Part shown: positions 59,857 to 64,000 of the stretch, piece after piece | How positions within the stretch are numbered: position 1 is the stretch's first letter | How the letters are laid out: the number at the start of each line of letters is the position of its first letter | From: Agilicoccus flavus | GTDB lineage: Bacteria; Actinomycetota; Actinomycetes; Actinomycetales; Dermatophilaceae | NCBI RefSeq assembly: GCF_014857905.1 | Contig: NZ_JACYXE010000014.1 | Span: 1-64,000, forward strand | Length of the DNA: 64,000 nt | Reading direction: 5' to 3' | Made by a program: the position numbers and the translations under genes | Notes under the pieces: model-generated | What the model was told of the DNA's origin: nothing | What the model saw: the letters and a program-made list of their open reading frames with translations, nothing else | The model's database searches: none

Positions 59857-62283
59857 ATGTCGGGGTCAGGGATCCACGAAGTCTTCGCCGACCCGCGGGG
59901 TCGGCGGCGCCGCGCGTTCCGCGCCACGGTCGCCACACTCGCCGTCGGTGCGATCGCGGCGCTCGGACTCGCGGTGCCGTACGCGTTCTCGTCGTCGGCG
60001 GCCACGTCGGTGTCCGACCGGCCGACCGTGACGATCCGCGACGTGGGGCCGGACGCCCCGATCGTCGGCGCCGGACCGCTGGAGCGGGTCGTCGAGCTCC
60101 GGCCGGAGGGCGCGGGCGTCCGCGGCGTCGAGCCGTTCACCGGCGCCGACCTCGGGCTGCTGCCCGGCGTCACGGCGGCGGGCGTCACCGGGCACCGCTA
60201 CGCGATCCAGCGCTACGGGTACGCGGCCACGGGGCGCAAGACCATCTCGCTCACCTTCGACGACGGGCCCGACCCGGTCGTCACGCCCAAGCTCCTCGAC
60301 GTGCTCGCCCGCCACCACGTGCCCGCCACGTTCTTCGTCATCGGCCGCGCCGCGGTGCGCCACCCCGAGATCGTCACGCGCATGGCGCGCGAGGGACACG
60401 CCGTCGGTGGGCACACGATGACCCACCCCGACGTCGCGCACCAGCCCGACTGGCGCGAGCAGGAGGAGGTCGTCGGCGCCGCCCGCGTGCTGCGCGCGCT
60501 CACCGGCCGCGACGCCGCGATCTGGCGGATGCCGTACACGGCCGCGGACCCCGACCTCGAGCGGCACACCGTCGACGGACTGCTGCGGGCGCAGCGGCTC
60601 GGCTACGTCCACGCGTCCTACGACTTCGACACCCTCGACTGGGAGCACGACGCCCGGCCGTCCGAGTCGGTCCTCGACATCCCGCTGCCCGACTTCGACC
60701 AGGACCACATCACGGTGCTCCTGCACGACGCCGGCGGTCCGAACCGCGAGCGCAGCGTGGCCTACGTCGAGCGCCTCGTCGTCGAGGCGCGTGCCCGCGG
60801 GTACACGTTCACGACGATGCCGCAGGCCGTCCCCGCCGTCGCGGCGGCGAACACGCCCGTCACCCCGACCCCGGCCGACCGCGCCGTCCTCGCGTGGGCG
60901 ACGGTTGTGCACACGTGGCCGCGCACCCTCATGATCGTCCTCTTCGCGTTCGCGCTGCTGTGCTCGGTGGGCACGGGCCTGGTCCACGCGGTTCTCGCCC
61001 TGATCCGTCGGCGCCGACGCGACCGGGTCGTGTGGCCGAGCGGGACGGGCTCGCGGACCTCGGTCGTGCTCGCCGCGTTCGACGAGGAGGTCGTCATCGA
61101 GCGGACGGTCCGCTCGATCCTCGACTCCGAGCATCCCGTCGACGAGGTCGTCGTCGTCGACGACGGCTCGCGCGACCGGACCGCCGAGATCGTCGCCCGT
61201 CTCGGCCTCGCCGACCCGCGCGTCCAGCTAGTCGTGCAGGAGAACGCCGGAAAGTCGGCCGCCCTCAACCGCGGCATCGCCCGCGCGGTCGGCGACATCG
61301 TCGTCACCCTCGACGCCGACACGATCCTCACGCCCAGCACGATCGGCAACCTCGTGCGGCACTTCGACGCCGACGACGAGGCCCGCCGCGCCGACCCCGG
61401 CCGGGCCCCGCTCGGCGCCGTCGCCGGCACCGTCCGCGTCGGCAACCGCCGGACCAACCTGCTCACGCGCTGGCAGGCCCTCGAGTACGTGACGCAGATC
61501 GGGCTCGACCGGGCGGCGCAGGACCAGCTTGGCGCGATCTCGATCGTCCCCGGCGCGTGCGCCGCGTGGCGCCGCGAGGCCATCCTCGCGGCCGGCGGCT
61601 ACTCGACCGACACCCTCGCCGAGGACTGCGACCTCGCGTTGAGCATGCACCGTCTCGGGTGGCGGCTCACGCAGGAGGACCACGCCGTCGCCTACACCGA
61701 GGCCCCCGAGACCGTCGACGACCTGCTCAAGCAGCGCAGCCGGTGGACGTTCGGCACCCTGCAGGCCACGTTCAAGCACCGCCGGCTCCTCTTCGGCCGA
61801 CGCACCGGCTTCCTCGGCTGGTACGTGCTGCCGAACTACGTGCTCTCGCTCGTGCTGCCGCTGTTCTTCCTGCCGTTCGTCGCCGTCATGGCCTACGTGT
61901 CGGTGCGGCAGGAGGGGCCGGGCCTGCTGCTCGGCTACTTCGCCCTCTTCCTCGCGCTGCACGTCGCGCTGGCGGCCCTGACCGTCCGGCTCATGGGCGA
62001 GCGGTGGTCGCACCTGCTCTCCGTGCCGCTCTACCGGATCGTCCACGAACCGCTGCGCGCCTACCTGCTCTACACGTCCGTACACCTGGCGATCATCGGC
62101 GGACGCATGGGCTGGCAGAAGCTCGACCGCACCGGGACCGTGCAGGAGGACGGCGGGTCCACCGCCGTGCCCCGGCCCCGGGCCGGCGTGCATGTACTCC
62201 CATCGGGCGACGCCGGACCCGCCGTCACGGCTCCGTCCAGCGACTCCACCGTCTCCGACCACGACAGCGAGGTGCGGGCATGA
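59857..62283 (+). CDS. NodB polysaccharide deacetylase fused to a GT2 glycosyltransferase (MatB/PNAG-like)
   Basis: 808 residues. An N-terminal helix (about 20-45) leads to a NodB deacetylase domain at about 125-320 (metal motifs ISLTFDDGPDPVVTPKLLDV and AVGGHTMTHPDVAHQ; catalytic-side His in TVLLHDAGGPNRERSVAYVE). A helix (RTLMIVLFAFALLCSVGTGL) links to a processive GT2 domain at about 400-650 (EVVVVDDGSRDRTAEIVARL, IVVTLDADTILTPSTIGNLV, TLAEDCDLALSMHRLGWRLT, and LLKQRSRWTFGTLQATF, the QxxRW-type motif) and C-terminal helices. It should polymerise and de-N-acetylate beta-linked GlcNAc at the membrane. The same domain order is reported for Streptomyces MatB. First gene of a coupled operon. 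Confidence 0.88.
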   Translation: MSGSGIHEVFADPRGRRRRAFRATVATLAVGAIAALGLAVPYAFSSSAATSVSDRPTVTIRDVGPDAPIVGAGPLERVVELRPEGAGVRGVEPFTGADLGLLPGVTAAGVTGHRYAIQRYGYAATGRKTISLTFDDGPDPVVTPKLLDVLARHHVPATFFVIGRAAVRHPEIVTRMAREGHAVGGHTMTHPDVAHQPDWREQEEVVGAARVLRALTGRDAAIWRMPYTAADPDLERHTVDGLLRAQRLGYVHASYDFDTLDWEHDARPSESVLDIPLPDFDQDHITVLLHDAGGPNRERSVAYVERLVVEARARGYTFTTMPQAVPAVAAANTPVTPTPADRAVLAWATVVHTWPRTLMIVLFAFALLCSVGTGLVHAVLALIRRRRRDRVVWPSGTGSRTSVVLAAFDEEVVIERTVRSILDSEHPVDEVVVVDDGSRDRTAEIVARLGLADPRVQLVVQENAGKSAALNRGIARAVGDIVVTLDADTILTPSTIGNLVRHFDADDEARRADPGRAPLGAVAGTVRVGNRRTNLLTRWQALEYVTQIGLDRAAQDQLGAISIVPGACAAWRREAILAAGGYSTDTLAEDCDLALSMHRLGWRLTQEDHAVAYTEAPETVDDLLKQRSRWTFGTLQATFKHRRLLFGRRTGFLGWYVLPNYVLSLVLPLFFLPFVAVMAYVSVRQEGPGLLLGYFALFLALHVALAALTVRLMGERWSHLLSVPLYRIVHEPLRAYLLYTSVHLAIIGGRMGWQKLDRTGTVQEDGGSTAVPRPRAGVHVLPSGDAGPAVTAPSSDSTVSDHDSEVRA

Positions 62284-63662
62284 GCGCCACCGTCCACCGG
62301 CCCGTCGGACTCCGGGCGCCGCGACGCGGTACGACGTCCGGCCGCGGCACGATGTTCGGCCGCGGTGCCGCCGACCCGGTCGCCGGCCCCGTCGTCGTGG
62401 GCCCGGCGCCCACCATCGCGCCGGAGCGGCCCGCGACCGACGACGCGGTACGGCGGGAGGCGAGCCCCGAGGCGACGCCGCACGACGGGACGACCGCCGA
62501 GGCCCCGTCCCGGATCGACGTCCGCCGGGAGCACGCGCTGCGCGGCCGTGACCGCTACATCGACTCGCTGCGCGTCCTGGCCCTGGTCCGCGTCGTCGCC
62601 TACCACCTCTTCGGCTGGGCGTGGCTGCCGCTGCTGTTCCCGTCGATGGGCGTCATGTTCGCCCTCGCCGGGTCGCTCGTCGCCGCCTCCCTCGACCGCA
62701 GCCCGCACCGCGCCGGCACGGTGGTCCGGCGGCGCCTGCGGCGGCTGCTGCCCTCGTACTGGGCGTTCATCGCCGTGACGCTGCCCGCCATGGTGCTGCT
62801 CGGGTGGACGTCGTCGGAGGACGCGACGCCCCTGGGCTGGGACACCGCGCTCGCGTGGGTCGTCCCCTACGTCACGCCGCCGAGCAGCGAGCTCGGGCAG
62901 AGCTGGTACCTGCCGCTGTGGTACATCGCGACGTACCTGTGGCTGGTGCTCCTGTCGCCGGCCCTGCTCTGGCTCTACCGCCGGTGGCCGGTGCGGATGG
63001 TCGCCCTCCCGCTGCTCCTCGTGCTCGCCCTCGCCAACGGGGTCCTCGAGACCGGGGGTGGCCCCGTGGGTGACATCCTGCTCGACGTGGCCACCTTCGC
63101 CGCCTGCTGGATGCTCGGGTTTGCCCACCACGACGGGGCCATCCGCCGCCTCGCGCTGTGGAAGGTCGCCGCGCTCGCAGGGGCGTGCCTCGCGTTCGGA
63201 TACACGTGGGCGCAGCGCTTCCCGACGCCGGAGGGGCTCGTCAACATCTCCGACATCCCCGTGGCCGACGCGTTCTACGGGTTCGGGTTCGTGCTGCTGC
63301 TCCTGCGCCTGTACGTCGACATGTCCTGGATGTGGCGGGTGCGGCTGCTCGACCGGTTCGTCGCCGCCGTCAACCGGCGCGCCCTGACGATCTACCTGTG
63401 GGGCAACCTGTCGATCACCCTCGCGCTGATCGGGCTCGACCGGTGGGCGCCGCAGTGGACCGGCGGTGACCCGGTCTCGCACGCCGTCGCGTTCGGCACC
63501 TCGTGGCTCGTCATCGGCGTCGCGGTCCTGGCGTTCGGCTGGGTCGAGGACCTCGCCGCCCGGCGGCCACGCCGCGGGGTCGGCGCGGGCCGGGAGGCCG
63601 CGCGCATCGTGCCCCGCCCGGCCCGGGACGGCTCCCCGTCGGTGGCCCCGAGCCGCCCGTGA
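62280..63662 (+). CDS. Membrane acyltransferase family 3 (OafA-like) protein
   Basis: 460 residues. A disordered cytoplasmic N-terminus of about 90 residues precedes ten or so helices. The family's His-containing entry DSLRVLALVRVVAYHLFGW and LPSYWAFIAVTLPAMVLLGW, LWYIATYLWLVLLSPALLWL are typical of acyltransferase 3, which O-acetylates or acylates surface sugars. ATG 62280 overlaps the stop of the deacetylase-GT2 gene (ATGA), so it probably modifies that polymer. The stop overlaps the next GTG start. Confidence 0.87.
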   Translation: MSATVHRPVGLRAPRRGTTSGRGTMFGRGAADPVAGPVVVGPAPTIAPERPATDDAVRREASPEATPHDGTTAEAPSRIDVRREHALRGRDRYIDSLRVLALVRVVAYHLFGWAWLPLLFPSMGVMFALAGSLVAASLDRSPHRAGTVVRRRLRRLLPSYWAFIAVTLPAMVLLGWTSSEDATPLGWDTALAWVVPYVTPPSSELGQSWYLPLWYIATYLWLVLLSPALLWLYRRWPVRMVALPLLLVLALANGVLETGGGPVGDILLDVATFAACWMLGFAHHDGAIRRLALWKVAALAGACLAFGYTWAQRFPTPEGLVNISDIPVADAFYGFGFVLLLLRLYVDMSWMWRVRLLDRFVAAVNRRALTIYLWGNLSITLALIGLDRWAPQWTGGDPVSHAVAFGTSWLVIGVAVLAFGWVEDLAARRPRRGVGAGREAARIVPRPARDGSPSVAPSRP

Positions 63663-64000
63663 GGCGGGCGGTCGGGATGTGGCTCGCCGCGGTCCTCGTG
63701 CTCGGTGGGGGCGCGGCGTGCGGGTCCGCCGACGGCGACGATCCGGCCGGGTCGACGCCGTCGAGGTCGACGGGCTCGACGGGTCACGTGGCGCGACGGT
63801 GCGTCGCCGAGCCGGCGGGCGACGACCTCACCGACCCGGTCCGAGCGGACGTCGCGCGGATGATCGTCGCGTCCGCCGAGAACAGCACGCTCGTGTGGGA
63901 GAGCCGGTACGGCTACATCGAGTACGACGTCGAGGGCGACCCGGCCGAGAACCGCGGATACACCGGCGGCATCGTCGGGTTCACGTCGAAGACGCACGAC
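63659..64000 (+). CDS. GH46 chitosanase lipoprotein, N-terminal part (cut by window end)
   Basis: 114 codons visible. GTG 63659 overlaps the acyltransferase stop (GTGA). WLAAVLVLGGGAAC is a lipoprotein signal with the lipobox Cys at residue 21, followed by a Ser/Thr-rich linker. ARMIVASAENSTLVWESRYG, YIEYDVEGDPAENRGYTGGI and VGFTSKTHD match the N-terminal core of GH46 chitosanases, with the catalytic Glu in SAENS. It cuts beta-1,4-linked glucosamine (de-N-acetylated) polymers. Together with the upstream enzymes, it would trim or release the secreted polymer. Confidence 0.82.
   Translation, partial: MRRAVGMWLAAVLVLGGGAACGSADGDDPAGSTPSRSTGSTGHVARRCVAEPAGDDLTDPVRADVARMIVASAENSTLVWESRYGYIEYDVEGDPAENRGYTGGIVGFTSKTHD

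Follow-up and report, generated by a model that had tools for sequence, protein, structure and literature searches.

Polymer operons related to the locus

Exopolysaccharide operons of Gram-negative bacteria often contain a hydrolase of debated role. Synthase-dependent exopolysaccharide operons, several of them Gram-negative, usually encode such an enzyme, and the second domain of PgaB cleaves de-acetylated PNAG (PMC5933820). In Streptomyces, MatB unites a GT2 domain and an extracellular CE4 domain, and an IcaC orthologue, SCO2961, is encoded directly 3' of matB (Van Dissel and colleagues, PMC5972031). The MatAB product is PNAG-like, sensitive to dispersin B and resistant to chitinase, and it mediates aggregation and adhesion; the best-studied one is reported as beta-1,6 (PMC5972031). 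For the acyltransferase-3 (AT3) of the ica system, the assumed role is O-succinylation of PNAG, a matter that is unsettled (PMC9558356). In the literature searched, neither a hydrolase partner for an actinobacterial mat-type system nor a paper that joins a chitosanase to mat was found.

Organisation of the locus

The window, that is the whole stretch of 64,000 nucleotides analysed (G000:C5:1-64000), belongs to a contig running to 69884 in a 4.23-Mb genome. Near its end lies a unit of three genes, for a NodB-GT2 protein, an AT3 and a GH46-family protein, the last of them ending past the window. The features are as follows:

59857-62283, + strand: MatA-MatB-like fusion with a short MatA-like N-terminus, a NodB/CE4 deacetylase and a processive GT2 (Pfam, homologues, NCBIfam)
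59878-59991, + strand: MatA-like N-terminal segment, VFADPRGRRRRAFR and a hydrophobic stretch (by inspection)
60226-60840, + strand: NodB/CE4 domain with motifs TFDD, HTMTHP, RMPY and LLHD (Pfam)
61057-61971, + strand: GT2 domain; motifs DAD, AEDCD and QRSRW, as in processive synthases (Pfam, NCBIfam)
62280-62283, + strand: ATGA overlap of the NodB-GT2 stop and the AT3 start (sequence)
62280-63662, + strand: acyltransferase-3 in IcaC-like position (PF01757, 1.3e-21, 77.5 bits, cut-off 31)
63659-63662, + strand: GTGA overlap of the AT3 stop and the GH46 start (sequence; same 4-nt arrangement in G809)
63659-64000, + strand: 5' part of the GH46-family gene (297 aa in full), which continues to G000:C5:64552 (PF01374)
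63878-63880, + strand: codon of Glu74, equivalent of the general acid Glu22 of CsnN174 (alignments)
63920-63964, + strand: remodelled loop EYDVEGDPAENRGYT, five residues longer, with Glu97 aligned to the general base Asp40 (alignments)

Both 4-nt overlaps named in the initial annotation are present in the sequence, and its domain calls (NodB, GT2, Acyl_transf_3 and GH46) were all confirmed by profile searches. The fusion matched Polysacc_deac_1 (PF01522) at 8.9e-33 and GT2 at 1e-29 (PF00535), with another GT2 match at 1.1e-31. The frame opening at 63659 is GH46 by profile, with 6.1e-11 for the part inside the window and 1e-74 (251 bits, profile positions 2-210 of 210) at full length. GTG at 63659 is its natural start, and an alternative ATG at 63674 would abolish the GTGA overlap. 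Extension beyond 64 kb yielded the rest of this gene and no further genes of the unit, of which it is the last; the next gene lies convergently on the - strand and reads as intradiol-dioxygenase-like. On the 5' side, NodB-GT2 adjoins a heme oxygenase gene on the opposite strand. Promoter and terminator scanning of the locus, which is uninformative in such DNA, gave no site.

The core of the unit agrees with the Streptomyces mat locus (matA SCO2963, matB SCO2962, icaC-like SCO2961), where a CE4-GT2 fusion is likewise followed by an IcaC-like AT3; the window differs in that a MatA-like segment is fused to MatB and a GH46 gene is added at the end. A motif of the VFADPRGRRRRAFR type also opens the separate MatA-like proteins of L068, L075, L143 and L165, and the window protein is therefore read by us as a putative MatA-MatB fusion. 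As no separate matA lies upstream, where the heme oxygenase gene is found, the locus is a mat variant and does not have the canonical gene order. The staphylococcal icaADBC operon also gathers GT2, deacetylase and AT3 functions, but its deacetylase is not fused to the synthase and it has no hydrolase-family gene. The Gram-negative pgaABCD system shares with the window a synthase, a deacetylase and a hydrolase-family partner (PgaB carries a deacetylase and a GH153-type hydrolase domain), whereas the window uses a GH46 fold in place of the C-terminal TIM-barrel domain of PgaB, and its host has a single membrane and no outer-membrane porin. The earlier statement that no described system has this exact set holds in part: a pairing of MatB with an IcaC-type AT3 has already been published for Streptomyces (PMC5972031), and the new element is the GH46.

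Synthase and acyltransferase

Homologues of the NodB-GT2 protein are 60, 53 and 51% identical to it, and the catalytic motif residues of CE4 and GT2 are invariant across four homologues. The identity to the Streptomyces-type MatB of L143, which has an adjoining AT3, is 40%. Both domains lie in a single protein (Pfam) with a membrane segment between them, seen on inspection as a hydrophobic stretch lying between residues 344 and 380. The AT3 gene stands directly 3' of the MatB-type gene, an order common to L143, L165 and L178, and the AT3 proteins of the Piscicoccus and Arsenicicoccus loci are 54-55% identical to that of the window. In Arsenicicoccus piscis (L063:10722-13079) the AT3 bears a Pro/Thr/Ala-rich tail of >300 residues, and in three other genomes the contigs break off within an AT3 gene like this one.

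The best NCBIfam match of the GT2 is PgaC_IcaA (TIGR03937), with 174 bits against an equivalog cut-off of 422, and the domain is far from NodC and chitin synthase. A chitosan-like exopolymer or a Nod-factor-like oligomer, as originally suggested, is not favoured by these scores, NodC reaching 101 bits, also below its cut-off. An acylated chitooligomer of the Nod-factor kind would account for the NodB-like and NodC-like matches of the fusion, but these lie far below the curated cut-offs (NodC 101 of 550, NodB 115 of 240 bits), the AT3 is not of the N-acylating NodA family, and the closest characterised locus produces a matrix polymer. This reading was rejected on the NCBIfam scores and is regarded as extremely improbable.

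The GH46-family protein

The predicted structure of the window protein has the GH46 group A fold, with Z 30.6 to 4olt and 29.3 to 1chk, and membership of the family stands on this modelled fold together with the profile match. Most homologues carry an N-terminal export signal. The lipobox initially assigned to the protein is weak (GGGAAC), and it was dropped as a conserved GH46 feature because its cysteine is not kept among the homologues.

In CsnN174, Glu22 is the catalytic acid and Asp40 the base; Arg42 stands beside the base, and Arg205, Asp145 and Arg190 support the acid (PMC3848431). The arginine of the FLDAR motif corresponds to Arg190 in 1chk numbering. Catalytic positions were compared over 82 distinct GH46 sequences. 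The mat-linked proteins of the Dermatophilaceae type keep the equivalents of Glu22, Arg42, Thr45, Asp57, Asp145 and Arg190, and have five extra residues before RGYT with Glu in place of Asp40. The placing of Glu97 at the Asp40 position is uncertain, the structure model being of low confidence at residues 102-107, beside the loop. Outside this type the insertion combined with the Glu was seen in just one of the compared sequences, from a Phycisphaerales MAG (L062:2885-3670), whose 4.6-kb contig is without mat genes; on the GH46 tree this sequence branches as outgroup to the Dermatophilaceae proteins. Thus the window protein resembles the group A chitosanases CsnN174, OU01 and SirexAA-E in predicted fold (Z 29-31) and in most catalytic and substrate-binding positions, but departs from them in the five-residue insertion and the exchanged general base. 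Further differences from these enzymes are the biosynthetic gene context of mat-linked copies and, in the mat-linked copies that we label Streptomyces-type from our reading of the GH46 and mat genes, the missing Glu22.

These Streptomyces-type copies number three (G672, G827 and G809); in them position 22 is occupied by Val, Val and Met and position 190 by His, His and Cys, and the G809 protein has lost Arg42 and Thr45 as well. The clade to which they belong lies mostly away from mat loci, and since Arg42 is replaced in most members, mat-linked or unlinked, the whole clade is unusual. Its members have a hydrophobic N-terminus, and the lost arginine is essential in CsnN174. Two of them (L212:8129-9037 and L169:6644-7558) have what we read as a rhomboid-like gene on one side and glutamate synthase genes on the other. 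Loss of Glu22 could not be kept as a strict sign that a protein is linked to mat, because G819, the only unlinked clade protein without this residue, has no mat neighbour on its contig. The probability of all three linked proteins falling among the four that lost Glu22 is 0.002 for 24 clade members, with relatedness ignored; the tree shows 23 members, which gives the same value to one figure, and G672 and G827 share one event. The GH46 genes of these two genomes are intact with a dN/dS of about 0.43, and they are therefore probably still used.

Recurrence of the gene set

The family of the window, Dermatophilaceae, includes Piscicoccus intestinalis, with the same genes in G006 and NZ_BCNQ01000060.1, where MatB, AT3 and GH46 are accompanied by a second, divergent GH46. 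In Arsenicicoccus piscis, of this family too, the GH46 is convergent to MatB-AT3, and in a Micrococcales MAG an AT3 is followed by three tandem GH46 genes, MatB, if there is any, being off the contig. Two peptide patterns of the window-type GH46, searched for across 84,980 species, returned only Piscicoccus, Arsenicicoccus, the Micrococcales MAG and one Phycisphaerales MAG contig. The link extends to a second taxonomic order: among Streptomyces-type loci, G809 has matA, matB, AT3 and GH46 with 4-nt overlaps among the last three, and G672 and G827 have a GH46 divergent from matA-matB-AT3; a locus similar to that of G809 in G609 is without GH46. Among Piscicoccus, Arsenicicoccus and the Micrococcales MAG, the GH46 layouts comprise same-strand, divergent, convergent and tandem ones. 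At two related MatB-type loci its place is taken by a GH18-family gene: in G042 with a PF00704 match of 6.8e-12 and a 4-nt overlap, and in G218 with a weak GH18 match and 27% identity to the G042 protein.

With regard to conservation of the gene order, the set recurs in other genera but most MatB-type loci are without GH46. It was found absent from most such loci in the family, the order and the class, and it was consequently rejected as a general partner of MatB. The contigs of G118, G160 and G226 stop inside AT3, and the order-wide GH46 screen gave no GH46 there.

The mat-linked proteins fall into three separate groups on the GH46 tree, which speaks for repeated recruitment to mat loci, at least twice and probably three times. 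Among the 26 genomes of the class sample holding both genes, a GH46 gene lies <=5 kb from a MatB-type gene in 2 (0.07 expected, P 0.002), and chance adjacency was discarded on this count; one of the two cases is the window itself, and when it is left out 1 is seen (P 0.06) and the excess is weak. Such adjacency is rare outside the family of the window. What argues for a link between GH46 and mat is that the adjacency recurs in separate lineages, and not how frequent it is.

It could be supposed that the host secretes the GH46 as a chitosanase to feed on chitosan from its surroundings, and that the place of the gene behind AT3 is incidental. Other actinobacterial GH46 genes do have neighbours for the uptake of glucosamine oligosaccharides, controlled by CsnR (PMC5635096), and most of the GH46 genes sampled are away from mat. 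The neighbouring genes of the window unit, however, include no such uptake genes, the GH46 start codon overlaps AT3, the adjacency is repeated across several genera and distinct branches of the GH46 tree, and the catalytic residues of the linked copies are altered. A catabolic role is for these reasons judged quite improbable.

Proposed function of the unit

We favour, with moderate confidence, the reading of the unit as a mat/ica-type operon whose product is a poly-GlcNAc exopolysaccharide, de-acetylated in part, with a GH46 that acts on the operon's own polymer. The GT2 domain would polymerise UDP-GlcNAc and extrude the chain, from which the fused NodB/CE4 domain, extracellular in the presumed topology, would take off some of the N-acetyl groups. 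The AT3 would then O-acylate the chain in the manner of IcaC. The GH46-fold protein, presumably exported, would meet de-acetylated stretches of this polymer, its likely substrate, and might trim or release chains or, where the catalytic acid is gone, bind or tether them. By analogy, such a role may be likened to those of the PgaB hydrolase domain, PslG and BcsZ in Gram-negative systems. The GH46 is accordingly proposed, from sequence comparison and analogy, as a recurrently recruited accessory whose specificity may have shifted from chitosan. The initial view of a single unit for synthesis, de-N-acetylation, O-acylation and trimming agrees with the domains, the overlaps and the recurrence in other genera of the set with a hydrolase-family protein; trimming by a chitosanase is the unproven part of it, the catalytic positions being altered. 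Since such alterations occur in all mat-linked GH46 proteins, no chitosanase activity is claimed for the window protein.

Against the favoured reading stands the fact that the known activity of GH46 is that of a beta-1,4 chitosanase, whereas the MatAB product studied most is reported as beta-1,6. According to an earlier reading the polymer is beta-1,4-linked and chitosan-like, and the GH46 is an ordinary chitosanase trimming it. All characterised GH46 enzymes are chitosanases, the window protein keeps the six equivalents listed above, the G042 replacement gene belongs to a chitinase-type family, and the CE4 enzymes homologous to MatB have 1,4-linked substrates (PMC5972031). These points are opposed by the nearness of the GT2 to PgaC_IcaA, by the enzyme sensitivities of the MatAB product (PMC5972031), by the exchange of the base Asp40 for Glu in a lengthened loop and by the missing acid of Streptomyces-type mat-linked copies, and the chitosan reading is considered unlikely. 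In the reading preferred here, the specificity of the mat-linked forms has probably moved away from plain chitosan; a shift of this kind would explain both a beta-1,4 chitosan fold beside a synthase nearest to a beta-1,6 family and the changed catalytic positions. A more far-reaching version can be put forward tentatively, as a possibility we hold to be doubtful: Actinobacteria may have repeatedly drafted a chitosanase-fold protein into PNAG (mat) loci, where in one lineage a remodelled base loop gave an enzyme for de-acetylated or acylated PNAG and in another the loss of the acid led to polymer binding.

If this more far-reaching version is true, a Gram-positive PNAG-type operon would have a hydrolase-family partner, and the GH46 fold a new specificity. 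The partner would offer a handle on the identity of MatAB-type polymers (1,4 or 1,6 linkage, extent of de-acetylation, acylation) and on whether a chitosanase fold can be redirected towards PNAG or become a matrix-binding protein. Mat-linked GH46 proteins could also yield enzymes against PNAG biofilms.

GH46 domains in phages and plasmids

Hydrolase domains of this kind in phage tails often serve as depolymerases, and GH46 domains there would therefore suggest that glycans sensitive to or bound by GH46 are present on the hosts. In 30 Streptomyces phage records a tail-module gene with a GH46 domain, annotated as chitosanase or glycoside hydrolase, precedes the tape measure gene or follows minor tail genes, for example in DrGrey (gp21, L235:4029-5822) and in Ponzi (L238:2939-5422), whose host is S. 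lividans. A Piscicoccus locus (L033:4017-8441 on G006:C1, also IMGVR_UViG_2681812969) encodes a 1474-aa protein with GH16, GH46, BSP peptidase and alginate lyase 2 in one frame. It lies in a prophage-like region with endolysin and minor tail protein matches nearby, and from its domains it is possibly a multi-enzyme tail depolymerase.

One may ask whether the mat-linked GH46 shields or remodels the coat against phages with GH46 tails, or attacks the coats of competitors. The tail-module domains of the 30 phage records (one phage on S. lividans) and of the Piscicoccus prophage, and the GH46-sensitive glycans that seem to be present on such hosts, fit with this thought, but there is no direct link, the phage GH46 proteins show no particular closeness to the mat-linked proteins, and the prophage copy has the canonical DIGDGRGYT loop. 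A role in surface protection or warfare is thus very improbable.

A staphylococcal plasmid GH46 was considered as an ica partner and rejected, as it does not adjoin ica. In the plasmids of Staphylococcus epidermidis and S. capitis (L236:7752-10028 and L237:7752-10019) the chitosanase gene is followed by a gene for a cellulase-family hydrolase.
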